Source: Peptococcaceae bacterium CEB3
Lineage (GTDB): Bacteria > Bacillota > Desulfitobacteriia > Desulfitobacteriales > Desulfitobacteriaceae
DNA length: 64,000 nucleotides
Assembly: GCA_001029295.1 (NCBI GenBank)
Contig: LDXJ01000057.1
Location: 1-64,000 of the forward strand
Direction: 5' to 3'
In this document: positions 10,384 through 45,549 of the stretch, one piece after another
How positions within the stretch are numbered: position 1 is the stretch's first letter
How the letters are laid out: every line of letters starts with the position of its first letter
The notes under the pieces: model-generated
The model's input: the letters and a program-made list of their open reading frames with translations, nothing else
Database searches by the model: none
What the model was told of the DNA's origin: nothing
Position numbers and translations under genes: made by a program

Positions 10384-10813
10384 AGACAGGATTTCGCTCG
10401 TTGAGCAGGGCCGTGCCGCGCGGGCTTATGAGATGGTGCAAGAAGCGAAAGAGGCCTTGGGGGCGGATGAAAAGAAATACAAATCCTATGTCAAGAAGAT
10501 TCCCATGCTGATCAAGACGAACGGTCTGGCGGCCACACTGGCTTTTATTCTCTCGAAAACCGGAGGAAATTCTAAGGAGGATTCCGACAGAAAGTCAAAA
10601 GGAAAAACACCGTATGGCCGGATCTATAGTCAAATCGCGGATTGGTTAAAGGAGAAGGAACTATTGACGGGAGAGACGGATTTGGTTCAAGAGATTATCA
10701 GCCTGTCGTCTGCGAAATACCGGTCAGTTACGGCGGAGGTGCTCGCCCTTTTTAGTTGGCTCCGTCGCTTTGCCGAAGGTTTGATTGAGGGTGAAGTTGA
10801 AGATGACACGTAA
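10370..10813 (+). CDS. cmr5: Type III-B small subunit Cmr5 (Cas11)
   Basis: Cmr5 is the small helical subunit that stacks along the inner filament of the complex. The 147-residue all-helical sequence contains the family segment VKKIPMLIKTNGLAATLAF (about residues 41-59), a polar linker (SKEDSDRKSKGK), and a final helix YRSVTAEVLALFSWLRRFAEG. GGAGGTGAAGG precedes the ATG within the end of cmr4. The stop overlaps the start of cmr6. Confidence 0.93.
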   Translation: MAKAEDRISLVEQGRAARAYEMVQEAKEALGADEKKYKSYVKKIPMLIKTNGLAATLAFILSKTGGNSKEDSDRKSKGKTPYGRIYSQIADWLKEKELLTGETDLVQEIISLSSAKYRSVTAEVLALFSWLRRFAEGLIEGEVEDDT

Positions 10814-15007: not shown

Positions 15008-18000
15008 GCGGAACCTTCACATTGGATGTATTGAAATTTCAGCCACCCTTTATGGATGCTGAAATCATTAAAGGCGGAACCTTCACATTGGATGTATTGA
15101 AATCCTTGTCAGTCGATGTGTTCGCCATGTTACAACAGCGGAACCTTCACATTGGATGTATTGAAATTCCCGTCCTGGAAGAACAATGGGCCATTGGAGA
15201 GGGGCGGAACCTTCACATTGGATGTATTGAAATTGATATCTGTAGCCGTTCGTGGCATTCTGCTCATCCGCGGAACCTTCACATTGGATGTATTGAAATG
15301 TTGACGAAGTGGAGGATATACTAGACCTGGACTCGCGGAACCTTCACATTGGATGTATTGAAATACGATGAGTACGATTACGAGTACAAGTCGCCTAAAT
15401 CGCGGAACCTTCACATTGGATGTATTGAAATTACATATTCTGGAGGAAGCGATCATACTTCTGCTTGCGGAACCTTCACATTGGATGTATTGAAATGAGA
15501 TCGCATTGTTGGGCCTCAGTATACGGTCATTGCGGAACCTTCACATTGGATGTATTGAAATAATCCTCACCAAACGCCCAGAAAGAATGCGCCAATAGCG
15601 GAACCTTCACATTGGATGTATTGAAATCTTTCTCGGGCCGGCTTATCACCTGGGCGAACCCTCGCGGAACCTTCACATTGGATGTATTGAAATTCAACCT
15701 TCCCGTTGGCTTCCGTAAGTGCCGCAGCTGCGGAACCTTCACATTGGATGTATTGAAATGGTAATCGAGTATACATTTCCGGTACAGTATGGGTGCGGAA
15801 CCTTCACATTGGATGTATTGAAATGTGCATGAAGGCTATGCCGTGATGCTGGAGGAAATGGGCGGAACCTTCACATTGGATGTATTGAAATAAGGAGATG
15901 ACGCAGAAGTGAAAAAGATATTCATGCGGAACCTTCACATTGGATGTATTGAAATTCGTGCTCCAGAAGGATCTTAGAAAACTGTTCTGCGTGCGGAACC
16001 TTCACATTGGATGTATTGAAATCTTCTTCCGGGCAGGTCTTGCGTATCAGGTGCCATAGCGGAACCTTCACATTGGATGTATTGAAATTTTTGAAAACTT
16101 GCGTATTTTCTGTTTACATTAGCGGCGGAACCTTCACATTGGATGTATTGAAATTGTCTATTCGAGATCAAGTGCGGGCGCGGGATCACGCGGAACCTTC
16201 ACATTGGATGTATTGAAATTATCCAGGAGCGGGATTGGTCAAGGATTATAAGGGGGCGGAACCTTCACATTGGATGTATTGAAATGCGTCAAGCGGTGAT
16301 AGAGCCGACTACCGGCCGCCAGCGGAACCTTCACATTGGATGTATTGAAATGGTAACTTCCGGACGATTTCGGCAAACAGCTTGGCCGCGGAACCTTCAC
16401 ATTGGATGTATTGAAATTCTTAACTGCGGATGCCGTGAACGTTCTAGCTACGCGGAACCTTCACATTGGATGTATTGAAATTTTTGAAGGTCCGCATCTT
16501 CAGTTGAAGCCACGCCTGCGGAACCTTCACATTGGATGTATTGAAATTCGCCCAAACAGAGGGAGCGGTCCGGCAAAATATCGGCGGAACCTTCACATTG
16601 GATGTATTGAAATTTTTTTTCCACCCCACCACAAGTTGTCCGCGACTTCGCGGAACCTTCACATTGGATGTATTGAAATGGCATACAACGAGATCTACCA
16701 GAAATGCTTCTTTTAGCGGAACCTTCACATTGGATGTATTGAAATATATCACTGCGGCTTGGGTAAACGCGTGGCAATACGCGGAACCTTCACATTGGAT
16801 GTATTGAAATAAGCTGCGGGCGAATTAAGCATGAAACCTTCGACAGCGGAACCTTCACATTGGATGTATTGAAATTTCCAATTCCCATTCTGACCAGTTC
16901 TTCTCGATGCGGCGGAACCTTCACATTGGATGTATTGAAATCCGGTTGGGGTGGTCCGTTGAAGGAAAGGTGACAGAGCGGAACCTTCACATTGGATGTA
17001 TTGAAATAGAAAAGAGGCCAACGAATGGGCAAAGGGCAGTGCGCGGAACCTTCACATTGGATGTATTGAAATTCAACCTTCCCGTTGGCTTCCGTAAGTG
17101 CCGCAGGCGGAACCTTCACATTGGATGTATTGAAATATGCCACGACCGGACTCTCCGCAAATCTGCAGTCCCGCGGAACCTTCACATTGGATGTATTGAA
17201 ATAGGGGAACCGTATTGATATTTGGATGCCGACGTAGCGGAACCTTCACATTGGATGTATTGAAATTTGAACGGGCCGTAAAACTGTGGAGTGCTCCAGG
17301 CGCGGAACCTTCACATTGGATGTATTGAAATAGGGAATGTACAGAGGGGCCGTCAGTGCGGATCTCGGCGGAACCTTCACATTGGATGTATTGAAATCTG
17401 TAGACGAAGCTGAACTCGGTGGGGTTTCCCCAGCGGAACCTTCACATTGGATGTATTGAAATTGCTGAAATCGCAGCAGAAAACCAATGCGGACATGGCG
17501 GAACCTTCACATTGGATGTATTGAAATAATATCTTATGTACAAGAAGTTACAGACCTTCTGGTGCGGAACCTTCACATTGGATGTATTGAAATGTGTAAG
17601 TTGGCAGTAACCAAAACCTTGATAACAACGCGGAACCTTCACATTGGATGTATTGAAATATTTGATGTTGCGAATGCTCCACCAGTTGAACCAGGGCGGA
17701 ACCTTCACATTGGATGTATTGAAATATTCGAATTTTTTCACAAGACATTCTCCTCTCTTCTGCGGAACCTTCACATTGGATGTATTGAAATGAAGTGGTC
17801 AAGCATCGGATGATTTAAGTTCGCGCGGAACCTTCACATTGGATGTATTGAAATTACACGAAGTACGGGTGTTTTGTTCCAAGGCCTTTTAGCGGAACCT
17901 TCACATTGGATGTATTGAAATCGATGATCGCCATGGAAATCAAGGGCGCCAAGGCCGCGGAACCTTCACATTGGATGTATTGAAATCGGGGGAACGTCGG

Positions 18001-21000
18001 GATGAGGGCGGTATGCGATCCGGCGGAACCTTCACATTGGATGTATTGAAATAGGCCAACGGATTCCGAAAGACCGGATATGCCCCCGGCGGAACCTTCA
18101 CATTGGATGTATTGAAATTAGGAGGGGGCTATATGAGCGGGAATGACCCAGAAGGCGGAACCTTCACATTGGATGTATTGAAATACAGATACGAAACCTA
18201 CAACGAATGTGCCGGGCGGGGCGGAACCTTCACATTGGATGTATTGAAATAAAAAGCGGCACAGATCTCCGGCGAACGATCCAGAGCGGAACCTTCACAT
18301 TGGATGTATTGAAATATCCTTTTTCAGTCAGTTGCCCTGCCCGTGCTGGCAGCGGAACCTTCACATTGGATGTATTGAAATCGCCGGGATTAGCCGCCCG
18401 GCTCGGCTTCTGGTCCGCGGAACCTTCACATTGGATGTATTGAAATCGCCTGAGAAGCGAGGATACTCCACAAAGACCATGCGGAACCTTCACATTGGAT
18501 GTATTGAAATTAATAAGGCCGACCGGCGGCCTTATCGTCTGCATTCGCGGAACCTTCACATTGGATGTATTGAAATCGGCTGACTGGTTGCCTGTGTTGG
18601 TCGCGGCTGACAGCGGAACCTTCACATTGGATGTATTGAAATCCGCTGACTGGTTGCCTGTGTTGGTCGCGGCTGACCGCGGAACCTTCACATTGGATGT
18701 ATTGAAATACGATTGTCGGAACCGCGTTTCCTCCTGCTTCTCCTGCGGAACCTTCACATTGGATGTATTGAAATAATTTAATGGACCGGCAAGCCCTATC
18801 GTGATGAAGCGGAACCTTCACATTGGATGTATTGAAATGAAGAAACCCAAGATAGAAACCGAGAATTGGAGAAGCGGAACCTTCACATTGGATGTATTGA
18901 AATAGGATGGATGTGGGAGAAGGTGTCTGTCCAACACTCGCGGAACCTTCACATTGGATGTATTGAAATATCTCGGAAGAGTACGATACATTTGCGGTCA
19001 ACAATCGCGGAACCTTCACATTGGATGTATTGAAATCGAAATGATTGCTCCAGATGAAGGTGCTCAAATATCGCGGAACCTTCACATTGGATGTATTGAA
19101 ATCATTGAGTATCCATCCTCCACTCTCGCGGCGACTGCGCGGAACCTTCACATTGGATGTATTGAAATTATACGTGCCTCCTCTGTGTATTCTTTCCATC
19201 AAAGCGGAACCTTCACATTGGATGTATTGAAATATGTGATTGTGTCCTACGAAGAACGTCCACCGATCCTGCGGAACCTTCACATTGGATGTATTGAAAT
19301 GCGGTAATGTCCCGGATAAACGTCTGGACGAGATTCGCGGAACCTTCACATTGGATGTATTGAAATTTTTAAAACATCTCCTTTATTTTCCTAACGCTAG
19401 GGCGGAACCTTCACATTGGATGTATTGAAATCTGGCTTACTGTTTCCTACCTGTTTTTACTTATTTAGCGGAACCTTCACATTGGATGTATTGAAATCGC
19501 AAAACCTCGATCCTGGCTAATGCCGCAAGTTTGCGGAACCTTCACATTGGATGTATTGAAATCTATTTGGGAAAATGTACCCGGATCTTTCAGTAGCAGC
19601 GGAACCTTCACATTGGATGTATTGAAATTTGAACCTATAGCTTTTAATGGGAGGCAAGATCCTAGCGGAACCTTCACATTGGATGTATTGAAATTTATTT
19701 GGACCGACAAGCTACCATGTCACAACCTGCGGAACCTTCACATTGGATGTATTGAAATTATAATCGCCATCCTTGTGGTGAACATCTTTCCCCAGGCGGA
19801 ACCTTCACATTGGATGTATTGAAATTATGTGGGAAATGTTTTGAGCTAACCTTGATTGGGCGGAACCTTCACATTGGATGTATTGAAATCTCAGCTAGTC
19901 TTTTCGATAGGTTTTTGGCAATCAGCGGAACCTTCACATTGGATGTATTGAAATCGCAAAGACTTTGCCAATGACCGGGTCGGTATAAATGCGGAACCTT
20001 CACATTGGATGTATTGAAATTTTCGAAGAAAAGCTTGATTGCTTGGATGTTGCCAGCGGAACCTTCACATTGGATGTATTGAAATAGTGCTGTTTTGTCA
20101 AGCTATGATTACTCGGGTATGGCGGAACCTTCACATTGGATGTATTGAAATGCATTTTCGAGGCGGTGAGGGCCTGGTCTGCCGACCGCGGAACCTTCAC
20201 ATTGGATGTATTGAAATTCGTCACTGTCTTCGTAGAGCACTTGGCCAATCTCGCGGAACCTTCACATTGGATGTATTGAAATCGTGATTCGCCAACAATC
20301 CCATTCTTTTGCCATAAAAGCGGAACCTTCACATTGGATGTATTGAAATACCCTCTTTTCAATATTTTTTAAGATTTTTTCTCTGCGGAACCTTCACATT
20401 GGATGTATTGAAATTCCACTTCCGCATATAGGGTGATTCCGGTTTCCAAGCGGAACCTTCACATTGGATGTATTGAAATTAATCGCTCTTGGCCGTTGCC
20501 CTGAACGTCACTCCGGCGGAACCTTCACATTGGATGTATTGAAATAACGGAAAGAAAGCTACGCCTCCGCCACGGAAATGGCGGAACCTTCACATTGGAT
20601 GTATTGAAATGACACTCAACCCTGCCAAGCAAAACATGTTTTTGCCGCGGAACCTTCACATTGGATGTATTGAAATCTCCCTCCGGGTCTTGGGTATCGT
20701 GAATTCAAATGCGGAACCTTCACATTGGATGTATTGAAATTACGCAAGCGAATGGTGGGTTCCGCTCACGAAGCGTGCGGAACCTTCACATTGGATGTAT
20801 TGAAATATGGTATGCCGGAGTAAATAATACCGGTTATAACCCGCGGAACCTTCACATTGGATGTATTGAAATAAACCTTCCCCGATTTCCTAAGCCACGA
20901 TCCCAGGCGGAACCTTCACATTGGATGTATTGAAATTAAGCAATTTTGTCTTTCTCGGTATCGCGGTTCCTCCGCGGAACCTTCACATTGGATGTATTGA

Positions 21001-22187
21001 AATGTATCAAACAGCTTCCCTCCAACAACTTTTTTCATCTGCGGAACCTTCACATTGGATGTATTGAAATAGGCAATATACTCTCTCCCCACCCCATATC
21101 CGACCCGCGGAACCTTCACATTGGATGTATTGAAATTCAACGAGCTCATGCCCAAGCAAAACGACGGCAACGCGGAACCTTCACATTGGATGTATTGAAA
21201 TAGGGCCGAGCATGGAACTGGGAATGCCGCTCAAAAGCGGAACCTTCACATTGGATGTATTGAAATCTAAACAACACAGACCAACCTAATACTACCGTAC
21301 CCGGCGGAACCTTCACATTGGATGTATTGAAATGACGGATAAATGCCAGACCACCGGTCCACAACCATGGCGGAACCTTCACATTGGATGTATTGAAATT
21401 TTTTGATTTCTCCTTCTTTTTCTATTTCATCCTGTGCGGAACCTTCACATTGGATGTATTGAAATCCGTGAGCCCATAGCCGGGCCGCGTGTATTATCAT
21501 AGCGGAACCTTCACATTGGATGTATTGAAATAATTGCAATTACTCGGGTATTTTCCAGTCGTCCATGCGGAACCTTCACATTGGATGTATTGAAATATAA
21601 TTTTTCGCATACTCCTACCACCTTTCATTTTTTGCGGAACCTTCACATTGGATGTATTGAAATGGGGCAGGTGCTGGCTTATCGGCCAGCGGGGCCTGGC
21701 GGAACCTTCACATTGGATGTATTGAAATGGTATCCATCTCGAGCTTCTAGGTATATGCCTTTCAGCGGAACCTTCACATTGGATGTATTGAAATGACGCT
21801 GAAGATGGACGACTTTGATGTCTACACATAGCGGAACCTTCACATTGGATGTATTGAAATCAGACCGTACAATCCGGAAAGGTATCCCGTCGAATCGCGG
21901 AACCTTCACATTGGATGTATTGAAATTAGGATTTAAAACTTAAAAGGAGAGAGAAGCACAAGCGGAACCTTCACATTGGATGTATTGAAATAGGTCTGGG
22001 TCCCAGACCGTGACGACGGCGAAGCAGCGGAACCTTCACATTGGATGTATTGAAATTTTCGCATCCTCCTTCTCGGTCTTCTCGTCCTCTGGGCGGAACC
22101 TTCACATTGGATGTATTGAAATCGGAGTTCAAGTAATCTTTTTCCAAAGACGTTATCGCGGAACCTTCACATTGGATGTATTGGCTT
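15008..22187 (+). CRISPR. CRISPR array 2, 110 repeats
   Basis: The same 30-nt repeat as array 1 occurs 110 times with spacers of about 34-38 nt. All copies looked identical except the last (22158), which is intact to GGATGTATTG and then continues GGCTTGAAAAT instead of closing with AAAT. The leader promoter is on the left, so new spacers should be near 15008. One spacer occurs twice (15694-15729 and 17073-17106, identical over 34 nt). Two neighbours (18577-18612 and 18643-18678) are near copies of each other. Several spacers match or overlap spacers of array 1. Confidence 0.98.
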
Positions 22188-34643: not shown

Positions 34644-35921
34644 ATGCAAGGAAAGAAGAAACCCCATGTTCTGGTGTTGGGCGGCAATTTTGCCGGATTG
34701 ACCACAGCCAGGTTTATCCGGGAGCGGTGTGGCGGAGATGTCGACATCACCGTCATCGATCGCAAGTCTTATCTGGTCTTCGTGCCCAATATTCCCATCG
34801 AGGTATTTGCTAACCGCAATCCTCAGAACAGTCTGCATATGCCGATTGAGCATGTTCTGCACGGAGATGGGAGTGAGTTTATTCAGGCGGAAGTTCGTGG
34901 CATTGATGTGGAAAGTTCCCGGGTGGATTTTGTGGTCACGGAACGACCGGGGGCGCCGGTGGAACATCTTCAATACGATTATCTGGTGGTGGCTCTGGGT
35001 GCCCGCTTGGCTTATGACCGGATCGAAGGTTTCGGGGAATACGGGTTCACCTTGTCAGATACCTATTACGGTAACCGGTTCCGCCGCTACCTGCACGAAG
35101 GGGGATATAAAGGAGGCCCCATCGTGATCGGTTCCGCCCGCTTCCACCAAGGGAGCAAGGGCAAACCGGACTGGCTGCCCATGGCCTTGGCGGCTTGCGA
35201 AGGCCCGCCGTTGGAGATCGCTTTGTCGCTCGGCTCCTGGTTGGAAGATCATTCCTGGGGCGGCCCGGATAAGATTACTCTGTTTACACCGGCCCCGGTC
35301 ATCGCCGAGGACGCGGGGGAAGAGATCGTCTCGAAATTCCTGGAAATGGCCGGGAGCATGGGGTATCATTATGTCAACAAGACAGAGGATATCAGGCGTT
35401 TGACGAAGGATGGGATCGAATTCGCCAATGGGACCAGTTTGGAGGCAGAGGTCAAGCTCGTCTTACCGGATTGGAAAGCCCATGACTTTATGAAAGATCT
35501 GCCGATTGTGGACGAAGAAGGGTTTGTTGTGACGGATCTGAGCATGCGCAACCCGGATTATCCCAAGATTTTCGCGGCGGGGGACGCTGCGGCTGTGACC
35601 GTTCCCAAGCTGGGAACTCTGGGGGACATGCAAGCCCGGATCGTAGCCGCCCAGATCGCCAAGGATTTGGGGCGTCTGCCGGCGGAGGACGCGGCTGAAG
35701 TGTTTAAACCTGAGGTCATTTGCATGGGCGACATGGGACGGGACAAGGCGTTTTATATTCACTCGGATGTGTGGTACGGAGGGAAAACGAGTATCTTAAA
35801 GATGGGACGCATGATCTTTGCTCTCAAGTTGGCTTTCAAGGAGATGTATTACCGGACGGGCGGCAAGCCGTCGCGTTGGGGGCTGCCTTTAACTGAACTG
35901 TTGAGTGAACATGTGTTTTAA
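34644..35921 (+). CDS. FAD-dependent pyridine nucleotide-disulfide oxidoreductase (NDH-2/SQR-like)
   Basis: A 425-residue flavoprotein with two Rossmann folds: VLVLGGNFAGLTTARFI at about 9-25 binds FAD, DYLVVALGARLAYD is the mid motif, and DYPKIFAAGDAAAV closes the FAD site. Overall it resembles membrane-associated sulfide:quinone reductases and type II NADH dehydrogenases; the C-terminal MGRMIFALKLAFKEMYY is an amphipathic membrane anchor candidate. The paired redox cysteines of true SQRs are not clearly conserved (only AACEGP and VICMGD). Substrate therefore stays open. ATG 34644 follows AAAAAGGAGGGG; an upstream in-frame start at 34584 lacks this site. Confidence 0.82.
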   Translation: MQGKKKPHVLVLGGNFAGLTTARFIRERCGGDVDITVIDRKSYLVFVPNIPIEVFANRNPQNSLHMPIEHVLHGDGSEFIQAEVRGIDVESSRVDFVVTERPGAPVEHLQYDYLVVALGARLAYDRIEGFGEYGFTLSDTYYGNRFRRYLHEGGYKGGPIVIGSARFHQGSKGKPDWLPMALAACEGPPLEIALSLGSWLEDHSWGGPDKITLFTPAPVIAEDAGEEIVSKFLEMAGSMGYHYVNKTEDIRRLTKDGIEFANGTSLEAEVKLVLPDWKAHDFMKDLPIVDEEGFVVTDLSMRNPDYPKIFAAGDAAAVTVPKLGTLGDMQARIVAAQIAKDLGRLPAEDAAEVFKPEVICMGDMGRDKAFYIHSDVWYGGKTSILKMGRMIFALKLAFKEMYYRTGGKPSRWGLPLTELLSEHVF

Positions 35922-36003
35922 AGTTATGACTAACGGCGGAGAAAGGGCACGGCTGGTACCCTCGGGATCGATTAGTGGTACAGGTGGACTGTGAGCAACG
36001 GGG

Positions 36004-37746
36004 GTGGGTGGAGTGAAAAACAGGGAGGGGGGGCAAAAGGTCGCAACCCGTGCCATTCTGGAGGCTATCCGCGCCGGCGTGATTGTCATTGACCGGGAGC
36101 AGAATGTTATCTTTTGCAATCAGATGGCGGCCGATATTATCGGCCGGGGGGTTGCCGCCATTCTCGGGAGCAAGATCCGGGAGGTCATACCGGAGTCCGA
36201 GTTGGGACAGGTTCTGGAAGACGGGAAACCCCAATCCGCCCGTCTCTACATTGACGGCAGGCTGATGATTACTAACCGGGCGCCGGTATATGACGGCGGT
36301 ACGATCAGGGCGGCGGTGGCGGTGTTCCAGGACGGGAGCGAGCTGCAAGAGCTCCTCTCTCGTCTTGACAATACGCAAAGCATTCTCACGAATCTGGAAA
36401 ACATCTTCGAACATGCCTATGACGGTGTGATCGTGATCGACCGTAACGGGATTGTGACGCGGATTACAAAAGCTTACTGCCGTTTTCTGGAGACTACTCA
36501 GGAAGAGGCGATCGGCAAACACGTCACCGAAGTCTTGCCCACCAGCCGCATGCACATTGTCGTGCAGACCGGGGAAGCGGAAATCGGCGAACTGATGAAT
36601 ATCAGGGGGAAAGAAGCGATGGTCATGCGCATTCCCCTGAGGGAAAACGGGGAGATCGTGGGCGCGGTCGGCAAGGTGATGTTTCGGGATGTGCAGGAAT
36701 TGCGTTCACTGGCCGAGAAACTGAATCTCCTGGAAAGCAAAGTGAAGTTTTACGAAAAGGAACTGCAGCATTACCAGCGGCATTACCAGAAAGTCCGCTA
36801 CACTCTGAGTGACATCGTCGGGCAAAGCCGCCCGCTCGTGCGGGCTAAAGAGCTGGCGGAAAAAGCGGCTCAGGGAAAGTCGACGGTCCTTCTGCGAGGA
36901 GAGAGCGGCACGGGCAAAGAGCTTTTTGCCCATTCGATTCACGCTATCAGCGCGCGGCAGGCTTTCCCTTTTGTTCGGGTCAACTGTGGGGCTATTCCGG
37001 CCGAACTTCTGGAAGCGGAACTCTTTGGCTATGAGGAAGGGGCTTTCACCGGGGCGAAAAAGGGAGGCAAGCCGGGCAAATTCGAATTGGCCCATGGCGG
37101 AACGATCTTCCTGGATGAAGTGGGGGATCTGCCCCTGCCGATGCAGGCGAAAGTGTTGCGTGTCTTGCAGGAACGGGAAGTGGAACGGGTGGGCGGCAAC
37201 CGCCTGCAGCAGTTGGACATCCGGGTCATCGCCGCTACGCACAGGGATCTGGAACAGATGGTGAAAACGGGGGAGTTTCGCCAGGATCTTTATTACCGGC
37301 TGAACGTTTTTACCTTGACTGTTCCGCCCTTGCGGGAGCGGGAGGGGGACATTCCCCTCCTCAGCGCTCATTTGCTGCAGAAGTTTCAACGGGAACTGGG
37401 TTCCCGGGTGAGACGGCTGGAGAGCCGGGTGGAGAGCCTGTTCCTGAGGTATCATTGGCCGGGCAATGTCCGGGAACTGCAGAACGTGGTTGAGCGGGCG
37501 GTGAATGTGGCGGAAAGCGAAACTATTGTCTTCGAGGATCTGCCCCTTTACCTGAAGGACCTTGAGAACAGGCGCGGTGAGGGTGTCTTGCAGCCGTTGG
37601 CCCAAGAGGTAGCGGAGGCGGAGCGCACCGCCATCATACGCGCCCTTAAGGCCACGGGCGGGAACAAAGTTCGGGCGGCGGAATTACTTGGCATTCACCG
37701 AGCCAATCTCTACCGTAAGATGGAGCGCTACGGGGTCGAGGACTGA
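36004..37746 (+). CDS. Sigma-54-dependent PAS-PAS-AAA-Fis activator
   Basis: A 580-residue enhancer-binding protein. Two PAS sensor domains (about 10-115 and 125-235; AGVIVIDREQNVIFCNQMAA and DGVIVIDRNGIVTRI) precede a coiled linker, then a AAA+ domain with GESGTGKE (about 298), GAFTGAKKGG (about 346), the loop that contacts sigma-54, FLDEVGDLPLPMQAKVLR, and YHWPGNVRELQNVVERA. The C-terminal Fis helix-turn-helix is GGNKVRAAELLGIHRANLYRK. It lies just upstream of a sigma-54 promoter for the CoA-transferase operon and is the obvious activator. GTG 36004 is used here; GTG 36013 is equally plausible. Confidence 0.93.
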   Translation: MGGVKNREGGQKVATRAILEAIRAGVIVIDREQNVIFCNQMAADIIGRGVAAILGSKIREVIPESELGQVLEDGKPQSARLYIDGRLMITNRAPVYDGGTIRAAVAVFQDGSELQELLSRLDNTQSILTNLENIFEHAYDGVIVIDRNGIVTRITKAYCRFLETTQEEAIGKHVTEVLPTSRMHIVVQTGEAEIGELMNIRGKEAMVMRIPLRENGEIVGAVGKVMFRDVQELRSLAEKLNLLESKVKFYEKELQHYQRHYQKVRYTLSDIVGQSRPLVRAKELAEKAAQGKSTVLLRGESGTGKELFAHSIHAISARQAFPFVRVNCGAIPAELLEAELFGYEEGAFTGAKKGGKPGKFELAHGGTIFLDEVGDLPLPMQAKVLRVLQEREVERVGGNRLQQLDIRVIAATHRDLEQMVKTGEFRQDLYYRLNVFTLTVPPLREREGDIPLLSAHLLQKFQRELGSRVRRLESRVESLFLRYHWPGNVRELQNVVERAVNVAESETIVFEDLPLYLKDLENRRGEGVLQPLAQEVAEAERTAIIRALKATGGNKVRAAELLGIHRANLYRKMERYGVED

Positions 37747-37970
37747 GGACGAAGGAGGTCGAAGACTGAGGACGGGGGAGACCAAAAACGCCGGGGTCCC
37801 GGGGTCCGCATGGAGTGCTTGCCATGAACGAAGCGAACCCCGGGATGCAAAATCCCCGGGATGGAGTGCCTGTAATCTACGGATTGAACCCTAGGGTGCA
37901 AAAAAAAGTCCAAAATCCCGAGTGGAAGATTTACTTTAGCGGACGGACAGAGGGTGGGTAAGCACTTGCA

Positions 37971-38077
37971 TGACGCGATCACGCGCCATGTCGCGTAATC
38001 GCGGCAGTCGTCATTTATGGCTCATCTTTCAGACTTTTTGCGCGAGACAAGTTGTCAATTGTCGCGGATTCGCGACA
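37971..38077 (+). promoter_or_regulatory. Three 18-bp palindromic activator sites (UAS)
   Basis: Three related inverted repeats of form TGTCGCG-N4-CGCGACA: 37971-37988 (TGACGCG/CGCGCCA), 37989-38006 (TGTCGCG/CGCGGCA) and 38060-38077 (perfect). The first two abut exactly; the third is centred 71 bp from the second. They lie about 115-215 bp before the predicted sigma-54 start, where enhancer-binding proteins usually bind, so they are likely sites for the Fis-type activator encoded upstream. Confidence 0.75.
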
Positions 38078-38123
38078 TAGAGAGGACAAGCTGGCTGTTC
38101 CTATTGTTAGCAAAAAATCCCGC

Positions 38124-38157
38124 AAACCCGGAAGAATTAGGACTTCCGGGTTTTTTT
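38124..38157 (+). terminator. Rho-independent terminator ahead of sigma-54 promoter
   Basis: AAACCCGGAAG pairs with CTTCCGGGTTT around an 8-nt loop, then a T run. It sits between the activator sites and the sigma-54 promoter, so it should stop transcripts coming from the activator gene and keep the operon under sigma-54 control. Confidence 0.88.
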
Positions 38158-38163
38158 GCGTGC

Positions 38164-38180
38164 TTGGCACAGGTTTTGCA
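38164..38180 (+). promoter_or_regulatory. Sigma-54 (-24/-12) promoter
   Basis: TTGGCACAGGTTTTGCA matches the consensus TGGCAC-N5-TTGCA fully, with 10 bp between GG (38166-38167) and GC (38178-38179). Start of transcription is expected near 38191, 24 nt before the CoA-transferase ATG. Confidence 0.9.
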
Positions 38181-38214
38181 ATTATCACTCTTCAGATTGG
38201 AGGGGAAGTACAAC

Positions 38215-39762
38215 ATGAAGAGGAAGCAGTTTCTCAGTGCGGATGAGGCTGTGGCTCTGATTAAGGACGGCAGTATGGTAGCCATCGATGGCTTTGTCAG
38301 TATCGGTCATCCGGAGGAATTGACGATCGCACTTGAGCAAAGGTTCTTGCGCACCGGGAGTCCCCGCAATCTTTCCTTGGTTTATGCGGCCGGACAGGGG
38401 GACGGCAAAGATCGCGGCATGAACCACCTCGGGTATGAAGGGTTGATCAAGCGGGTGGTCGGAGGACACTGGAACCTGGCGCCGAAGCTGGGGAAACTGG
38501 CGGTGGAAGAGAAAATCGAGGCCTACAATTTTCCCCAGGGTGTGGTCACCCATCTCTTTCGGGATATCGCGGCCGGCAAACCCGGGACCTTAACCCATGT
38601 CGGCTTGGAAACTTTTGTCGATCCCCGCCGGGGAGGCGGGAAGCTCAACCGGGTGACCCAGGAGGACCTGGTGGAGTTGATGACAGTGCGGGGGCGGGAG
38701 TATCTCCTCTATCACGCTTTCCCGATTGATGTGGCCCTCATACGCGGGACTTATGCCGATGAGGACGGGAACATCTCTTTTGCGCGCGAAGCTCTGACAC
38801 TGGAGACGCTCTCGGCGGCTCAGGCGGCCCGCAACAGCGGCGGGCTGGTGATCGTGCAGGTGGAGCGGGTGGTACAGCGCGGCAGTCTCAACCCTCGAGA
38901 GGTGAAAATCCCCGGGATTTTGGTGGATGTGGTGGTTGTGGCCTCCCGGCCGGAGAACCACATGCAGTCTTTCGCCGAGCAGTACAACCCGGCTTATAGC
39001 GGAGAACTGCGTTTGCCCTTAAACCAGTTGAAAGCCATTCCCCTGGATGAACGCAAAGTGATCGCGCGCCGGGCTTTCCAGGAGATCTTTTCGGGTGCGA
39101 TCGTCAATCTGGGGATCGGGATGCCGGAAGGGGTAGCCTCCGTGGCGGCGGAAGAAGGAAAACTCGAGGAGTTTGTCCTCACAGTGGAATCAGGGCCGAT
39201 CGGCGGTGTACCGGCGGGGGGGATGAGTTTCGGGGCCAGTTTCAATCCGGAATGTGTGATTGACCAGCCGTACCAGTTCGATTTCTATGACGGGGGCGGA
39301 CTGGACCTGACCGTACTGGGCATGGCCCAAATGGACCGGGAAGGAAATGTCAACGTCAGTCGTTTTGGGTCTCGGATTGCCGGCGCCGGCGGATTCATCA
39401 ACATTTCGCAAAACGCCAAGAAAGTGGTTTTCTGTGGGACGTTCACGGCCAACGGCGGGCGGGTGCTGGTGGAAGACGGTCGGCTGCGCGTGCTGAAAGA
39501 AGGAGTGGTCAGGAAGCTCGTTGCGGACGTGGAACAGGTGACCTTCAGCGGTAATTACGCGCGCAAGCAGGGACAGAAGGTTTTTTTCGTGACAGAGCGC
39601 GCGGTTTTTGAACTGAGGGCCGAGGGGTTGGTTCTGATTGAGATCGCCCCGGGTCTGGATCTCGAAAAGGACATCCTGGGACAGATGGGCTTCCGGCCGA
39701 TGATCGCGGAGGATTTGAAGGTTATGGACGAGAGGATCTTCAGGCTCGGGCCGATGGGGTGA
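38215..39762 (+). CDS. Family I CoA-transferase, fused alpha-beta (YdiF/acetate-propionate type)
   Basis: A 515-residue enzyme that moves CoA between carboxylic acids, for example from acetyl-CoA to a hydroxy or keto acid. The N-terminal alpha-like half ([20 protein letters not shown] to about 300) is fused to a beta-like half ([20 protein letters not shown]). The catalytic glutamate lies in [17 protein letters not shown] 38215 is chosen because it follows GGAGGGGAAG and gives the usual family start; longer in-frame starts would include the promoter. It is the first gene of the sigma-54 operon. Confidence 0.92.
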
Positions 39763-39780
39763 AAGGGGATTAAGAAGGAT

Positions 39781-40527
39781 ATGAAGATTGGAAATAGGGT
39801 TGCTTTGATTACCGGCAGCGGTCAGGGTTTGGGCCGGGCGATAGCGTTAACGTTTGCCCGCGAAGGCGGAAAGATTGCGGTGAACGATATTCCTTTCAAT
39901 GAGGCCAAGGCCCTGCAAACGGTGGCGGAAATCCGGCAGCTGGGTGCGGAGGCGGAGTTCTTTCCCGCGGACGTGAGCCGGGAAGCGGAAGTTGAGGCCA
40001 TGGTGGCCGCGGTTCGGGCGCGTTTTGGTCGGATTGACATTCTCATTAACAACGCGGGGATCAACCGCGACGGTTTGCTGCACAAAGCGGAAAGCAAGAA
40101 CTGGGAAGCGGTAGTCGCCGTCAATTTGACCGGGCCTTTTAACTGTACGAAAGCGGTCCTGCCGGGGATGAGAGAGCAGGGGTACGGGCGGATTGTGAAT
40201 ATGTCTTCCCTGACGGCGCGCATGGGCATCTTTGGCACCGGTTATTACGCGACGACCAAGGCGGGGCTGATCGGGCTGACCAAAGTAACGGCGGCCGAGA
40301 ACGCCACGAAAGGGATTACCTGCAATGCCTTGGCGCCGGGTTATGTGAAGACCGACATGATGCTCAGGTATCCGGAGGAACAGCTTAAAGCTCTCATTAG
40401 CAAAATTCCGGCGGGGCGTCTGGCCGAGCCGGAAGAGATCGCGGAGGCAGCGCTCTTCTTTGCGGCCGACTCTTCAGCTTATGTGACCGGGGCGGTGCTC
40501 GATATTAACGGCGGGTTTCTGATTTAG
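39781..40527 (+). CDS. Short-chain dehydrogenase, 3-ketoacyl-CoA/ACP reductase (FabG/PhaB-like)
   Basis: A 248-residue SDR with TGSGQGLGRAIA (about 11-22) for NAD(P) binding, NNAGINRDG, the catalytic serine in NMSSLTARMG and the YxxxK pair in YYATTKAG, ending with GAVLDINGGFLI. Between a CoA-transferase and a thiolase, it most likely oxidises 3-hydroxyacyl-CoA (or reduces acetoacetyl-CoA). GATTAAGAAGGA precedes the ATG. Confidence 0.92.
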   Translation: MKIGNRVALITGSGQGLGRAIALTFAREGGKIAVNDIPFNEAKALQTVAEIRQLGAEAEFFPADVSREAEVEAMVAAVRARFGRIDILINNAGINRDGLLHKAESKNWEAVVAVNLTGPFNCTKAVLPGMREQGYGRIVNMSSLTARMGIFGTGYYATTKAGLIGLTKVTAAENATKGITCNALAPGYVKTDMMLRYPEEQLKALISKIPAGRLAEPEEIAEAALFFAADSSAYVTGAVLDINGGFLI

Positions 40528-40536
40528 GAGGTAAAA

Positions 40537-41718
40537 ATGCGCGAACTAGTAATAGCCGGTGCGGTGCGCACGGCGGTAGGTTCTTTTCAAGGATCTTTGG
40601 GATCGGTCCCGGCGGTTGATCTCGGCGCTCTGGTAATCGCGGAAGCTCTTCGGCGGGCCGGGGTTAAGCCGGAGCAGGTCGATGAGGTGATCATGGGCAA
40701 TGTGCTGCAGGCGGGTTTGGGGCAGAATCCTGCGCGCCAGGCGGCCGTCGAGGCCGGGTTACCCCTGGAAGTGCCGGCATTGACTATCAATAAGGTCTGC
40801 GGCTCGGGTCTGAAAACGGTGGTGTGTGCGGCTCAGGCGATCTTAGCCGGGGACGCGGATGTGATTGTGGCCGGGGGAATGGAAAATATGTCCGCTGCCC
40901 CTTACCTTCTGCCGCAGGCGCGTTCCGGCTACCGCATGGGTGATGGTTCCCTGGTGGACAGCATGATTCACGAAGGGCTTTGGGATGCCTTTTACGATGT
41001 GCATATGGGGATTACGGCCGAAAATATTGCCGAGCAGTTTGGCTTCTCCCGCCAGGACCAGGATGACTATGCCCTGTCCAGCCAGCAAAGGGCGGAGACA
41101 GCGATCAAAGCCGGCAAATTTGTCGACGAGATCGTGCCGGTAGCAGTGCCGCAGCGGAAAGGAGAGCCGCTGCTCGTCGCCCAGGATGAGTTTCCGCGCT
41201 TTGGCACGACAGCCCAGGCCTTGGCTAAGATACGGCCGGCTTTTAAGAAAGACGGCAGCGTGACGGCGGGAAATTCTTCCGGGATTAATGACGGAGCCGG
41301 GGCGGTCGTGGTGATGGCGAGAGAAAAGGCAGAGAGTCTGGGTATCAAGCCGCTGGTTCGCCTCGTCTCCTGGGCTTCGGCTGGTGTTGATCCGAGGATT
41401 ATGGGGACCGGCCCGATTCCAGCCAGCCGCAGGGCGTTGGCGAAGGCGGGTTTACAGATAGAGGATATCGATCTGGTGGAGGCCAATGAGGCTTTTGCCT
41501 CCCAGACCTTGGCAGTGGCTCGGGAACTTAAACTGGATATGGCCAAAACCAATGTCAACGGCGGAGCCATCGCCTTGGGCCATCCGATCGGTGCCAGCGG
41601 TACCCGTATTCTGGTGACACTGTTGCATGAGATGGAAAAGAGGGAGGTGAAGCGCGGCTTGGCGACCCTCTGCATCGGCGGCGGACAGGGAATCGCTCTT
41701 GTGGTTGAGCGGCCGTAA
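40537..41718 (+). CDS. Acetyl-CoA acetyltransferase (thiolase)
   Basis: A 393-residue thiolase. The acylated cysteine is in [11 protein letters not shown] (about residue 88), the second site is [17 protein letters not shown], and the base cysteine is in [11 protein letters not shown]. It cleaves acetoacetyl-CoA to acetyl-CoA, or forms it. TAGGAGGTAAAA precedes the ATG, 10 nt after the reductase. With CoA-transferase and reductase it makes a complete route from 3-hydroxybutyrate-like acids to acetyl-CoA. Confidence 0.95.
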
Positions 41719-41733
41719 GCAGCCGACGGTGGC

Positions 41734-41990
41734 GGTGTAACCAGTGTAACTGGTGTAACTGGTGTAACCGGAAAAAACTCGGCCGCACAGCCCCGGGGGT
41801 TCAGAGCGAGCCAGGCATTGCCTCGGCCGGCGCCTGCGAGGGCAGAGAGGGGTCAGAGAAGGGGCAGAGAAGGTTAAACAAGGGTCGGAGATGAGGTTAG
41901 AGAGAGGTCAAACAAGGGCCGGCAAGGGCCGGAGATGAGGTTGGGGAAGGTCAGACAGGGGTTGCAGAAGGGTTAGTGAAGGAGTTAATT
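41734..41990 (+). repeat. Two short tandem repeat clusters
   Basis: GTGTAACYGG/A units of 9 bp, four copies (41734-41771), followed by a degenerate G/A-rich block (about 41850-41990) in which AACAAGGGYCGG and GGAGATGAGGTT recur. No gene. The ribosome binding site ACGGAGGTG of the permease follows. Confidence 0.8.
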
Positions 41991-42009
41991 TTTACGGAGG
42001 TGTTGCTTC

Positions 42010-43404
42010 ATGGCGGTGCTGGGCATTTTGCTTAGCCTTGGACTCTTGATGTTTATGGCCTACAGGGGTTTTTCCGTGATATTTTTTGCCCCGGTGTTTG
42101 CACTTCTGGCGGCCATTTTCTCCGGCATGGCGATCATGCCCACATATACTCAGATCTTTTTGCCGAATTTAGCGGATTATATTAAAGTATACTTCCCATT
42201 CTTCCTGCTCGGAGCCGTCTTCGGCAAAACGATGGAAGAGTCGGGGGCGGCCAAGGCCATAGCCAAGGTGATTGTGCAAAAACTGGGCAAACGTCAGGCT
42301 ATTCTGGCTGTGGTTCTGTCGGCGGCCATTCTGACCTATGGGGGAGTCAGCCTGTTCGTGGTGGCTTTTGCGGTCTATCCCTTTGCCGCCTCGATCTTTA
42401 AGGAAGCGGACATCCCCAAGCGCCTCATTCCCGCGAGCATCGCCCTGGGTGCGTTTACTTTTACCATGGATGCTCTGCCGGGAACTCCCCAGATCCAGAA
42501 TTCGATTCCGATGCAGTTTTTCAATACGAACCTGTACGCCGCTCCTGTTTTCGGAACCCTGGGCGCCGTTATCATTCTGGTGGCGGGGATATTTTACCTG
42601 GAATGGCGGAAGCGTACGGCTCAGGCCAAAGGTGAAGGATACGGGACGAATCATAAACAGGAGCCGGAGATGGTTGAGGACACGAGCCTGCCCAACCCCT
42701 GGTTATCCGCCCTGCCCTTGATTGCTGTGCTGGCCATGACGCTGATTTTGCAGACGATGGTTTTCCCGCATTGGGATATTACTTCCTGGGTGACCAAAGC
42801 TCCTTACAGCATTCCTAAAGGCGGAGTCATTGGCGTCATGAACAACTGGGCTTTGATCATCGCCCTACTGGTCGGAATCATTCTGGCTATGGCTATTAAT
42901 CCCCGCCGGATCAAGGGACACGTGGCCACGGCGATTAACGCCGGCGCGATTGGTTCCTTGTTGGCTGTCCTGAATACCGCTTCAGAAGTCGGATATGGCA
43001 ACGTGATCAAGACTCTGCCGGGCTTTCAGACGATCGCTCACGCCCTGATGGGGATTAATCACGGCGGCAGCCCGCTGCTTTCGGAGGCGGTGACGGTCAA
43101 TACTTTGGCGGGTGTGACGGGTTCGGCTTCGGGCGGCTTGAGCATTGCTTTGGCGACTTTTGGCAAAGAGTATTTAGCTTGGGCCCACCGGACAGGGATC
43201 AGCCCGGAACTGTTGCACAGAGTCGCAGCTATGGCTTCCGGCGGTTTTGATACCTTACCGCATAATGGAGCGGTTATAACACTTTTAGGGATTTCCGGCT
43301 TAACCCATAAACAATCTTATAAAGATATCTTTGCTATCACCCTTATGAAGGCGGGAACGGTCTTCCTGCTCATCGGTTTGCAAAGCATTCTCCATTTTGT
43401 TTAG
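42010..43404 (+). CDS. GntP-family permease
   Basis: A 464-residue membrane transporter with about 12 hydrophobic segments. Family marks are the N-terminal MAVLGILLSLGLLMFMAYRG, FFLLGAVFGKTMEESGAAKA, LTYGGVSLFVVAFAVYPFA and GVTGSASGGLSIAL. GntP proteins import gluconate, hydroxybutyrate or related acids by proton symport; the neighbouring genes point to a short-chain hydroxy or keto acid. It closes the sigma-54 operon after a 290-nt repeat-rich gap, so it may have some separate control. Confidence 0.9.
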   Translation: MAVLGILLSLGLLMFMAYRGFSVIFFAPVFALLAAIFSGMAIMPTYTQIFLPNLADYIKVYFPFFLLGAVFGKTMEESGAAKAIAKVIVQKLGKRQAILAVVLSAAILTYGGVSLFVVAFAVYPFAASIFKEADIPKRLIPASIALGAFTFTMDALPGTPQIQNSIPMQFFNTNLYAAPVFGTLGAVIILVAGIFYLEWRKRTAQAKGEGYGTNHKQEPEMVEDTSLPNPWLSALPLIAVLAMTLILQTMVFPHWDITSWVTKAPYSIPKGGVIGVMNNWALIIALLVGIILAMAINPRRIKGHVATAINAGAIGSLLAVLNTASEVGYGNVIKTLPGFQTIAHALMGINHGGSPLLSEAVTVNTLAGVTGSASGGLSIALATFGKEYLAWAHRTGISPELLHRVAAMASGGFDTLPHNGAVITLLGISGLTHKQSYKDIFAITLMKAGTVFLLIGLQSILHFV

Positions 43405-43748
43405 AATCCCTCGGGCCCTGGGTCGCGGGTTGGCCTGATCGATGAGAGGGACAAACAGGTGGACTGGGTGCAGGCGGAAAAAGCAGGCGGAAAAAAGCAG
43501 GTGGAAAAAAGCAGGTGGAAAAAAGCAGGTGCAATAAGCGTCTGCTTTTTCTCCGCTTTGACTGACCGTTTTGACTGAACGTTTTAAGTGATCCCGCGTA
43601 ACGGGTTTCCATCGGGTATTTCAACAGCTCAGCGCCGAACAGAAGTCGTATGGAGGCCGTATGGGGGAAGTAAAGCCATGGCTGGGTCCAAATTCGCGTA
43701 CGAAGATGTTTTGCCAAGGGTTGTGATCTGTTATTATATGAAGAAAGG
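43405..43748 (+). repeat. Intergenic 14-15 bp tandem repeats ending in a terminator
   Basis: Units of GCAGGYGGAAAAAA type repeat about five times (43468-43532). The last AAGCAG pairs with CTGCTTTTT (to about 43551), so the repeat block forms a rho-independent terminator for the GntP gene. No gene in the remaining 200 nt. Confidence 0.75.
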
Positions 43749-45122
43749 ATGAGCGAGGGACGAGCAAAGAAGAGTTTCCCGACAGCGCTTTTAATAAAGG
43801 AAAGGTGGCTGGCTGCCATAAGACTTGGGATACTGGGCGCGGATGATACGCTGGAACTGATTGTATCGATAGCCAGGGAGTACAAAGAATTTGAGTTGGT
43901 GCCGATTTTCTACTTGAGGGAGGAGGAGATCATCGGCAAGCTGGAACCCCGTGTCAGCGAGGCGGACATGTGGCTTTTTTCCGGGCAGGTACCCTACGCT
44001 ATCGCCAAGGCTTGGGGCGGGGTGACCAAGCCCATGTTTTATGTGACATACGAAGGATCCAGTCTTTATCGGACGCTGCTGCGGATAGCCCTGCAACGGC
44101 AGTGGAATCTGGAACGCCTCAGCTATGATACGTTTAGACCGAGCGTGCTGGAGCGGACTTTTGCCGAGGCCGGGATTCAGGCAAAACCTGCTCATGTTAA
44201 GTATTATCCGGGTATGATCTCGGTCAAGGAACTGAGTGACTATCATGAGGCGCTTTTCCGGGGCGGGCGGACTGAAGGTGCGGTCACTTGCCTGCGCTCG
44301 GCCTTTTTGGAACTTCAGCGCCGGGGGGTTCCGGTTTTTAGGGTTTTGCCAACCGCGGCTGCCGTGAAATCGGTGCTTAACCTTATTTTGCGGGCTAAGG
44401 AAGCCCTGCACTTTCGGGAAGCCCAAATCGCGGTTCAGATGATCGAGGTAGACACGTTTCTGGGGCTCGTCAAGAATAAGTTTGTCACAGATGAACTTTA
44501 TAAGCTTGAACTGAAAGTGACGGAGAAACTTCTGCGTTATGCCAGGAAAGTCCATGGCTCGCTCAAACAAGCGGGGCCCGGGCGTTATGTGATATTTACG
44601 ACCAGAAAACTTTTGGAGGAGATTACGGGGGACTTCCGTTTTGTTCCGGACCTCGAGGACCTAAAAATTGCCTTGGGCGCCATCACGTGCGGGATCGGGA
44701 CGGGAACCAGTGCTTATGAGGCCGAAACCCATGCCGGCCAAGCTTTGCTGCACGCGCATGAGCAGGGGAAGGGAAGCTGGATGGCTTTCTTCGACAATAA
44801 TACGATTGTCGGACCTTTGGGACATCCGGAGCAGGTTGCCTATTCCTGTGCCCCGGAGGCCTGGCAAAGGGCTAGCCATGACTCGGGCCTCAGTGTTGCC
44901 ACTTTAAGCAAGCTGGATTCCGTTTTAAAAAGAATCGGGTGCAGGGAGATAGATGCCCATGACTTGGCCCAGCATCTGAGGGTTCAACCCCGCAGCGCGC
45001 GCCGGCTTTTGCAGGCCTTGGAGGCGGCAGGGTATGCTGAGGTGGTCGGCGAAAGCAACCCCAACCCGCGGGGCCGGCCGCGGCGAATCTATAGGGTGAA
45101 CTTCGGCGGCGGTTCGGGTTGA
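43749..45122 (+). CDS. Transcription regulator: PrpR_N-like, GGDEF-like and winged-helix domains
   Basis: A 457-residue protein with an unusual layout. Residues about 20-190 (GILGADDTLELIVSIAREY, LEPRVSEADMWLFSGQVPYA) look like a PrpR_N-type sensor fold. Residues about 200-370 have a degenerate nucleotidyl-cyclase look: YVIFTTRKLLEEITGDF, then CGIGTGTSAYEAETHAGQAL, without a GGDEF active loop. Residues about 385-455 are a winged helix (DAHDLAQHLRVQPRSARRLL, NPRGRPRRIYRV). It may sense a small molecule and control the amidohydrolase/SSS genes that follow. Domain calls are by pattern; the DNA-binding end is the most secure. Confidence 0.7.
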   Translation: MSEGRAKKSFPTALLIKERWLAAIRLGILGADDTLELIVSIAREYKEFELVPIFYLREEEIIGKLEPRVSEADMWLFSGQVPYAIAKAWGGVTKPMFYVTYEGSSLYRTLLRIALQRQWNLERLSYDTFRPSVLERTFAEAGIQAKPAHVKYYPGMISVKELSDYHEALFRGGRTEGAVTCLRSAFLELQRRGVPVFRVLPTAAAVKSVLNLILRAKEALHFREAQIAVQMIEVDTFLGLVKNKFVTDELYKLELKVTEKLLRYARKVHGSLKQAGPGRYVIFTTRKLLEEITGDFRFVPDLEDLKIALGAITCGIGTGTSAYEAETHAGQALLHAHEQGKGSWMAFFDNNTIVGPLGHPEQVAYSCAPEAWQRASHDSGLSVATLSKLDSVLKRIGCREIDAHDLAQHLRVQPRSARRLLQALEAAGYAEVVGESNPNPRGRPRRIYRVNFGGGSG

Positions 45123-45172
45123 TGTCCGGGCAGCTTGGCGGTACCTTCGAGAATTAAGATGCTCGCTTATTT

Positions 45173-45199
45173 AAGCCCGACAGGGCTTTCTTTTTTTTC
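45173..45199 (+). terminator. Rho-independent terminator
   Basis: AAGCCC-GACA-GGGCTT followed by TCTTTTTTTT, 50 nt after the regulator gene. Confidence 0.9.
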
Positions 45200-45210
45200 A
45201 CTCTGATCTG

Positions 45211-45240
45211 TTCAAAGCGAACCCGCTATTATATAATAGC
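45211..45240 (+). promoter_or_regulatory. Promoter candidate overlapped by perfect 16-bp palindrome
   Basis: GCTATTATATAATAGC (45225-45240) is a perfect palindrome that contains TATAAT at 45233-45238, with TTCAAA 16 nt upstream. A regulator dimer bound here would cover the -10 box. The winged-helix protein encoded just upstream is the nearest candidate. Confidence 0.55.
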
Positions 45241-45435
45241 TGTAGGTATATAGGGACATGACCGTAAATAAGCCGTAAGACGAGCCTAGTGAACATGGAA
45301 AGGGGCGAAAGGGGTGAAACATTATAGTTTCCGGGCAGGAATTTCCGGCAAAAAGTCGTGTTCTCGCAACATCTGCCTTTTAGTTTCCGAAACTTCTGAA
45401 GAGTGAAAAGGGACTTCAAGGAAAAGATGGAAATG

Positions 45436-45549
45436 GAAGAGGAGTTTGAACAAACATAGAAGAGAAGTTCAAAGAAGAGATGGACAGGAGTTTAAAGAAG
45501 AGCTCAAAGAGGAGTCCAAAGAAGAGTGAAAAAGGAGTTCAAATAAGAG
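45436..45549 (+). repeat. Degenerate AAAGAAGAG repeat upstream of amidohydrolase
   Basis: Six or more units of AAAGAAGAGNTC type, 12-16 bp long, lead up to the start codon and supply the ribosome binding site AAGGAG. The rest of the 427-nt gap (45241-45435) shows no gene. Confidence 0.7.

Follow-up and report, generated by a model that had tools for sequence, protein, structure and literature searches.

A predicted sigma-54 control region with three operator palindromes, flanked by a PAS-AAA+-Fis activator gene and a CoA-transferase operon, in Peptococcaceae bacterium CEB3

The window analyzed here is the whole 64,000-nucleotide stretch at positions 1–64,000 of contig LDXJ01000057.1 from Peptococcaceae bacterium CEB3 (GCA_001029295.1; genome label G000). 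It contains a gene for a sigma-54 activator, followed on the same strand by genes for a CoA-transferase, an SDR-type dehydrogenase, a thiolase, and a permease (Table 1). A sequence-only reading of this DNA had placed a sigma-54 control region between the PAS-AAA+-Fis activator gene and the CoA-transferase operon. This arrangement is confirmed, and the coordinates given for the control region were correct to within a base.

Table 1. Features of the control region and the flanking genes in the window
Feature	Coordinates	Strand	Description
PAS-PAS-AAA+-Fis sigma-54 activator (EBP) gene	36004..37746	+	Pfam PAS (two stretches), Sigma54_activat, AAA_lid_14, HTH_8
UAS1	37971..37988	.	imperfect palindrome TGACGCG-ATCA-CGCGCCA; abuts UAS2
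UAS2	37989..38006	.	imperfect palindrome TGTCGCG-TAAT-CGCGGCA
UAS3	38060..38077	.	perfect palindrome TGTCGCG-GATT-CGCGACA
Intrinsic-type terminator	38124..38157	+	hairpin 38124-38153 plus T tail; between UASs and promoter
Sigma-54 -24/-12 promoter	38164..38180	+	TTGGCAC-AGGTT-TTGCA, hexamer from 38165
Fused alpha/beta CoA-transferase, Staph FadX-like (operon gene 1)	38215..39762	+	Pfam CoA_trans
SDR, 3-oxoacyl reductase / 3-hydroxybutyrate dehydrogenase-like (operon gene 2)	39781..40527	+	
Acetyl-CoA acetyltransferase / thiolase (operon gene 3)	40537..41718	+	TIGR01930
GntP-family permease	42010..43404	+	downstream of thiolase gene

The activator carries a GAFTGA motif and a recognition helix with the sequence GIHRANLYRK. 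Its start at GTG 36004 is a mechanical call, and the real start may lie slightly downstream; alignments begin at residues 3–16 in 10 of 11 orthologues and at residue 107 in G039. The CoA-transferase likely starts at ATG 38215, which has GAGGGG ahead of it; a mechanical open reading frame from 38017 crosses the sigma-54 promoter. The CoA-transferase scores 438 bits against the NCBIfam FadX model, under the cut-off of 750. The SDR scores above the cut-off for one subfamily of 3-oxoacyl-ACP reductases and under those of the 3-hydroxybutyrate dehydrogenase models, and the thiolase exceeds the TIGR01930 cut-off (493 versus 241 bits). A simple scan of the 291-bp gap between the thiolase and GntP genes found neither a sigma-54 motif nor a forward terminator. 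The permease probably belongs to the same operon as the other three genes. Of 15 genomes, 13 have a GntP gene in the stretch fetched downstream of the enhancer, and the stretches of the remaining two end before that point. The gene set would suit the import of acids resembling 3-hydroxybutyrate or acetoacetate and their cleavage by thiolysis; judged by gene content, hydroxybutyrate or acetoacetate is a plausible substrate.

The three UASs begin at 37971, 37989, and 38060, so that two sites abut and the third follows 71 bp on, start to start from UAS2, as the sequence-only reading had described. It had also assigned the palindrome TGTCGCG-N4-CGCGACA to all three. The sites are present, but the exact form is true of UAS3 only, and the half-sites within UAS1 and within UAS2 differ from each other. 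UAS1 and UAS2 jointly constitute one 36-bp inverted repeat with 16 of 18 positions paired. When the pattern is loosened to TGNCGCG-N4-CGCGNCA so that all three sites fit, the window holds four matches with at most one mismatch, three of them in the control region, against 0.19 per shuffle. With no mismatch allowed, the pattern occurs at four places in the 5.3-Mb genome, again three in the control region. The fourth, at C64:67566, was dropped, as the 1.4 kb fetched around it contained no strict sigma-54 motif. An independent test used a weight matrix built from the sites of relatives only, with G000 and G001 left out. UAS3 (19.3) and UAS2 (15.7) rank first and second in the window by this matrix, the next site reaching 10.3, and UAS1 scores weakly (4.3).

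The promoter matches all 12 bases of TTGGCAY-N5-TTGCW, in agreement with the full consensus claimed for it, and is the single strict match in the window. With one mismatch the consensus has three window matches, no excess over shuffles. The strict motif occurs 60 times in the genome and its reversed pattern 10 times. The genome has one match to rpoN (425 bits; cut-off 277).

A search of 73 genomes of the order at E ≤ 1e-190 gave orthologues of the activator in 15, and G035 brings the number to 16; G068, whose orthologue is cut by a contig end, was left out. Fifteen of the 16 contain operator triples, 17 in total. A scan with free spacing covered 14 of these regions in 12 genomes, and in all 14 the distance from UAS1 to UAS2 is 18 bp and that from UAS2 to UAS3 is 70–73 bp. 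The G062, G063, and G035 regions came from a second scan that required 18 and 60–84 bp, and have UAS2–UAS3 distances of 72, 72, and 73 bp; because that scan fixed the 18-bp spacing, only the 14 free-spacing regions test it. UAS3 lies 89–94 bp from the promoter in 13 of 17 regions, and 104 bp in G000 and G001, 107 bp in G009, and 198 bp in G039. Relative to about 93 bp, the departures of +11 bp (G000, G001) and +105 bp (G039) are close to whole helical turns, and that of +14 bp (G009) is not. The promoter consensus is matched at 11–12 of 12 bases in every region. Because the same layout is kept in relatives (17 regions, 15 genomes), we regard this as a real control region.

The tandem pair of UASs also tracks the activator gene. 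Among 61 genomes scanned, it is present in 13 of 13 with the activator, counting G035 with its shortened gene, versus 5 of 48 without (Fisher p 1.3e-9, phylogeny not corrected for); the five genomes with a tandem match and no activator count against the association. The earlier proposal, in which the adjacent activator acts through a sigma-54 control region, is supported by the operator layout, by this co-occurrence, and by the promoter kept in relatives. In G029 and G032, the same triple recurs at a second CoA-transferase operon, which follows a GntP gene. In G009 and G039, the fetched stretch has no CoA-transferase, and the first gene encodes an SDR of only ~35% identity.

G034 has a second tandem UAS pair (L162, G034:C112) that runs into a stretch of N at about the position expected for UAS3, possibly caused by a long palindrome breaking the assembly. 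In G035 (L190, G035:C45:25500-36500), the activator is missing residues ~302–433 and the CoA-transferase residues ~74–399, through real decay or assembly error; the UAS triple and the promoter are kept despite both deletions.

The 51 sites of the 17 regions yield the joint motif TGTaGCga..tcGCtACA. The family operator is TGTNGC-N6-GCNACA. The suggestion that an operator motif can be predicted for this activator family holds once the motif is widened to this form, the TGTCGCG version belonging to the clade of the window.

In 13 of 17 regions, our terminator detector finds a hairpin with a T tail no more than 90 nt from the promoter; the stem sequences vary, and the mean shuffle rate is 0.02. 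Its 3′ end is 5–13 nt from the promoter in 11 of these 13; in the window it ends 8–11 nt ahead of the promoter motif, depending on the stem cut chosen. The detector found no terminator in G029.2, G032.2, G034.1, and G063.1, and the first three of these have a long UAS3 hairpin in its place. A terminator as a general feature of sigma-54 promoters was considered and rejected, since the same detector scored only 3 of 59 other sigma-54-like sites in G000 and, in Desulfosporosinus stretches, 7 of 52, this system accounting for one of the seven. With other detector settings, used earlier, the count in G000 was 4 of 60, the window included.

The window terminator is presumed to be the end of the activator transcript. 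The sequence-only reading had called it an insulator. As a conserved element (13 of 17 regions versus ~2% in shuffles) it stands, while the insulating action is a prediction. It may simply be the ordinary end of the activator gene, its place beside the promoter having no insulating role, a serious possibility that we nevertheless lean against. The activator gene requires a terminator somewhere, compact intergenic regions pack such elements, and the two regions that lie behind a GntP gene instead of the activator gene, G029.2 and G032.2, have none by the detector. However, the terminator stays adjacent to the promoter in G003 and G011, where an extra ~1.6–2 kb separates activator and enhancer, and such hairpins are rare at the other sigma-54-like sites of the genome, as counted above.

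The recognition helix of the activator reads HRAN in G000, G001, G003, and G011, the clade of the window, and HRTN in the other 11 genomes. The HRAN group has C at operator base 4 in 17 of 24 half-sites, the HRTN group in 5 of 78; this base is mostly C in the clade of the window and A or T elsewhere. The link between HRAN and C probably reflects one evolutionary event. Among more distant activators, those with HRTT have TGTAG operators alongside (L118, L121, L126, L137, and L140), in agreement with a pairing of Thr with A. Those with Ser, Ala, or Gly at this residue have mixed operators, with both kinds in L103 and L136, and L079 (SRAW) has the operator TGTAAA, contrary to a Thr/Ala rule. For recognition helices of the Fis type, the comparison suggests a candidate rule that ties a residue to a base. 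If true, the correspondence of Thr/Ala with A/C at base 4 would be a simple specificity rule for Fis-type activators.

Some relatives display an unusual structural feature that goes beyond the earlier reading. UAS3 is the tip of a ~50-bp hairpin in eight of the 17 regions, which come from six genomes of genus g6. The genus was taken as Desulfosporosinus; the G006 and G032 stretches share all sampled 40-mers with D. acididurans and D. fructosivorans. Of the 17 positions flanking the core of these eight UAS3 sites, 13–17 are complementary to the position mirrored across the site, compared with 3–8 in the other nine, and 0–8 in every single UAS1 or UAS2. The UAS3 of the window, with 3 of 17 outer pairs, has no long arms. 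By this single-site test, long arms occur at 8 of 17 UAS3 and 0 of 34 UAS1/UAS2 sites. Tested as a pair, the flanks of the tandem sites are complementary in G063 (10 of 10) and G029.1 (8 of 10).

The hairpin arms diverge in sequence. Their mean identity over all pairs is 45%, and that of the next 10 bases leftward 53%; in the closest trio (G029.1, G019, and G032.1), the arms are 27–40% identical and the left flank 80–90%. In an alignment of the eight long-armed rows (A1), 16 of 24 pairs are changed on both sides. The two-sided changes amount to 46 cells versus 12.9 in shuffles, and the signal is lost when the partner is slid. Because the A1 rows were picked for symmetry, with nine UAS3 regions left out, their share of paired cells is a circular measure, a problem that affects the two-sided changes less. 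Judged by eye, arm mismatches (G-U versus A-C) do not separate an RNA from a DNA role. In the window, the whole 444-nt stretch after the activator gene has no significant excess fold stability (z −1.70; 7 of 100 shuffles at least as stable), and hence the window gives no evidence of structured RNA beyond local hairpins. An Rfam scan of 35900–45500 returned no match.

Long inverted repeats were also counted elsewhere. The 400 kb scanned in D. fructosivorans, one contig, contain 14 with arms of at least 20; two are less than 200 bp from a sigma-54 consensus, one of which is this system. Of 30 promoter loci (10 each from G029, G032, and G035), three have arms of at least 20, and two of these three belong to this system. 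In other bacteria, 65 loci centred on activators (806 kb) contain 10 such repeats. Neither the 400 kb nor the 30 loci revealed the general association of long hairpins with sigma-54 promoters in Desulfosporosinus that was sought. At L059, L061, L062, and L070 of genus g6, inverted repeats with 27–29-bp arms (CCCGGAAGCGGACACATTT...) lie beside another sigma-54 activator gene.

As long inverted repeats are background in the scanned D. fructosivorans contig, the simplest reading of the UAS3 hairpin is a 3′ hairpin of the activator gene that has become fused to the site. The repeats might even be functionless, a mutational by-product of template switching that perfects quasi-palindromes, which seems rather unlikely to us. 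The abundance of long repeats in that contig and the nine of 17 UAS3 regions, the window's included, that manage without long arms speak for such an origin. It is harder to reconcile with the restriction of the arms to UAS3, their similar size of ~50 bp, the complementary flanks of the tandem pairs in G029.1 and G063, and the 46 two-sided changes against 13 in shuffles, these last in symmetry-chosen rows.

A further, joint reading is still less probable in our estimation: UAS3 would double as the tip of a structured element, and the helix residue Thr/Ala would set operator base 4 to A/C. In one form, the activator mRNA would end in a hairpin formed by its own enhancer, and polymerase passing from the activator gene through that enhancer could displace bound activator. 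In the other form, the enhancer would extrude as a cruciform switched by supercoiling. The window would represent a reduced form, with the 36-bp inverted repeat of UAS1–UAS2 and a short UAS3 hairpin. The covarying hairpin raises the question of whether a bacterial enhancer may also be a structured RNA or DNA element.

Other sigma-54 sites of the genome were compared with this locus. The genome search proposed in the sequence-only reading was run and located the tandem pair (at most 3 mismatches, 18-bp spacing) at this locus only. When 400 nt upstream of each of the 60 sigma-54 motifs were scanned for operators, no other motif had a UAS triple within that distance. Three motifs have one good UAS-like site each, of TGTAGC type, on contig 64 beside a different activator. 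At this locus, L294 (G000:C64:121001-141000), the activator gene (9642–11897, minus strand) lies among sigma-54 promoters at 5385, 13326, and 17998, each with its TGTAGC-type UAS 112–114 bp upstream; genes nearby encode SDR, methylmalonyl-CoA mutase-like, TPP-enzyme, and HMGL-like proteins. The closest paralogue of the window's activator is 46% identical (C53:87464-89149). Near it lies the sigma-54 motif L021 (G000:C53:90691-90706, minus strand), accompanied by two weaker UAS-like sites that score 11.5 and 11.2 and stand at −228 and −209, a spacing of 19 bp.

It is very improbable that the palindromes belong to some other regulator (a repressor, or another of the genome's sigma-54 activators) and not to the product of the adjacent gene. 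The genome does encode nine further relatives of the activator at E ≤ 1e-100, and the L294 activator gene lies among its three promoters with single TGTAGC-type sites, but the operator pair goes with this activator in the 61 genomes scanned, and operator base 4 tracks its recognition helix.

The region is very probably the enhancer–promoter of a local one-component sigma-54 switch. The sequence itself shows the sites, their layout, their conservation, and the covariation; binding, looping, termination, inducer, and substrate we infer. The second operons of G029 and G032 speak for this switch. Points against it are the low matrix score of UAS1, the lack of a CoA-transferase in the G009 and G039 stretches, the four regions without a detected terminator, and the CoA-transferase and SDR scores under the FadX and 3-hydroxybutyrate dehydrogenase cut-offs. 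The PAS-PAS-AAA+-Fis activator made from the upstream gene would sense an intracellular signal and bind the three palindromes, two fused in the 36-bp inverted repeat and the third 71 bp nearer the promoter. Its operator would take mostly the form TGTCGCG-N4-CGCGNCA in the window and TGTNGC-N6-GCNACA across the family. Bound activator is predicted to loop over ~100 bp and to remodel sigma-54 polymerase at TTGGCACAGGTTTTGCA. The CoA-transferase, the SDR dehydrogenase, the thiolase, and probably the GntP permease would then be switched on, and could serve to take up a 3-hydroxy or 3-oxo short-chain acid and cleave it to acetyl-CoA. The enhancer would lie in what is presumed to be the 3′ untranslated region of the activator mRNA. 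The terminator ahead of the promoter would halt that transcript, leaving the operon driven by sigma-54 alone.

In E. coli, AtoC is a response regulator that controls the atoDAEB genes for acetoacetate use, which include CoA-transferase and thiolase genes. The window likewise pairs an activator with CoA-transferase and thiolase genes, but its activator has PAS domains and no receiver domain, and scores 338 bits against the AtoC cut-off of 714. The best NCBIfam match of the activator is PrdR, the proline reductase activator, with 490 bits under the equivalog cut-off of 795, and no prd gene is present among the seven neighbouring proteins scanned.

PrdR also belongs to the group with TGT/ACA operators in the study of Nie et al. 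2019, which reconstructed 39 activator groups in Clostridiales (PMC6615313). Fifteen of those groups have inverted TGT...ACA operators with a 10–12 bp spacer. The activators are mostly PAS-containing one-component AAA+ proteins with a Fis-type HTH, and 65% have one target operon; most groups have multiple UASs, mainly 100–250 bp upstream of the promoter (PMC6615313). The control region in the window is, on sequence grounds, of the same kind as these Clostridiales sigma-54 regulons. The AhcR, CrbR, and XcgR groups, which control CoA-transferase and permease genes and whose targets include cot and gntT or atoE genes (PMC6615313), are among those that come closest: the window UAS3 and the family consensus are likewise TGT-N12-ACA, while UAS1 and UAS2 of the window depart from TGT-N10-12-ACA at one or both ends. 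The operons of those groups include atoE-hbd-cotX and cotY-gntT-bcd-etfAB, as opposed to CoA-transferase-SDR-thiolase-GntP in the window. No group in Table 1 of that paper has the latter operon; the Desulfosporosinus groups in the table are YcbP, XhpR, XptB, and YpyB. The fixed tandem geometry and the terminators of the window family are not described for these groups in the available excerpts of PMC6615313.

A COG survey across phyla lists thiolase and 3-ketoacid CoA-transferase among sigma-54-controlled functions, and its excerpts describe no operator or activator of the window's family for these ketone-body genes (PMC12316311). A near-palindromic, hairpin-forming sequence also lies upstream of the BmoR-controlled sigma-54 promoter PBMO. 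A two-base change in this hairpin raised the dynamic range >4-fold, and after its deletion the activation profile stayed wild-type-like (PMC8899819). Unlike for the UAS3 hairpin, no conservation or covariation is described for it in the excerpts of that paper. No account of the window's activator family, of the conserved UAS-terminator-promoter order, or of covarying UAS hairpins was found in searches of the open-access PMC literature or in the excerpts of PMC6615313, PMC6710252, PMC12316311, and PMC8899819.

The locus yields a well-defined operator open to experiment, namely a triple of TGTNGC-N6-GCNACA sites at fixed 18/71-bp spacing, for an activator family unmatched to a named group. It also illustrates how an activator gene and its target promoter can be packed, with a terminator between enhancer and promoter. 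Elsewhere, the window contains two large CRISPR-like arrays, at 25–3642 and 15027–22122, in which the 11-mer TGTATTGAAAT repeats 56 and 109 times, respectively, with a period of ~65–66 bp.
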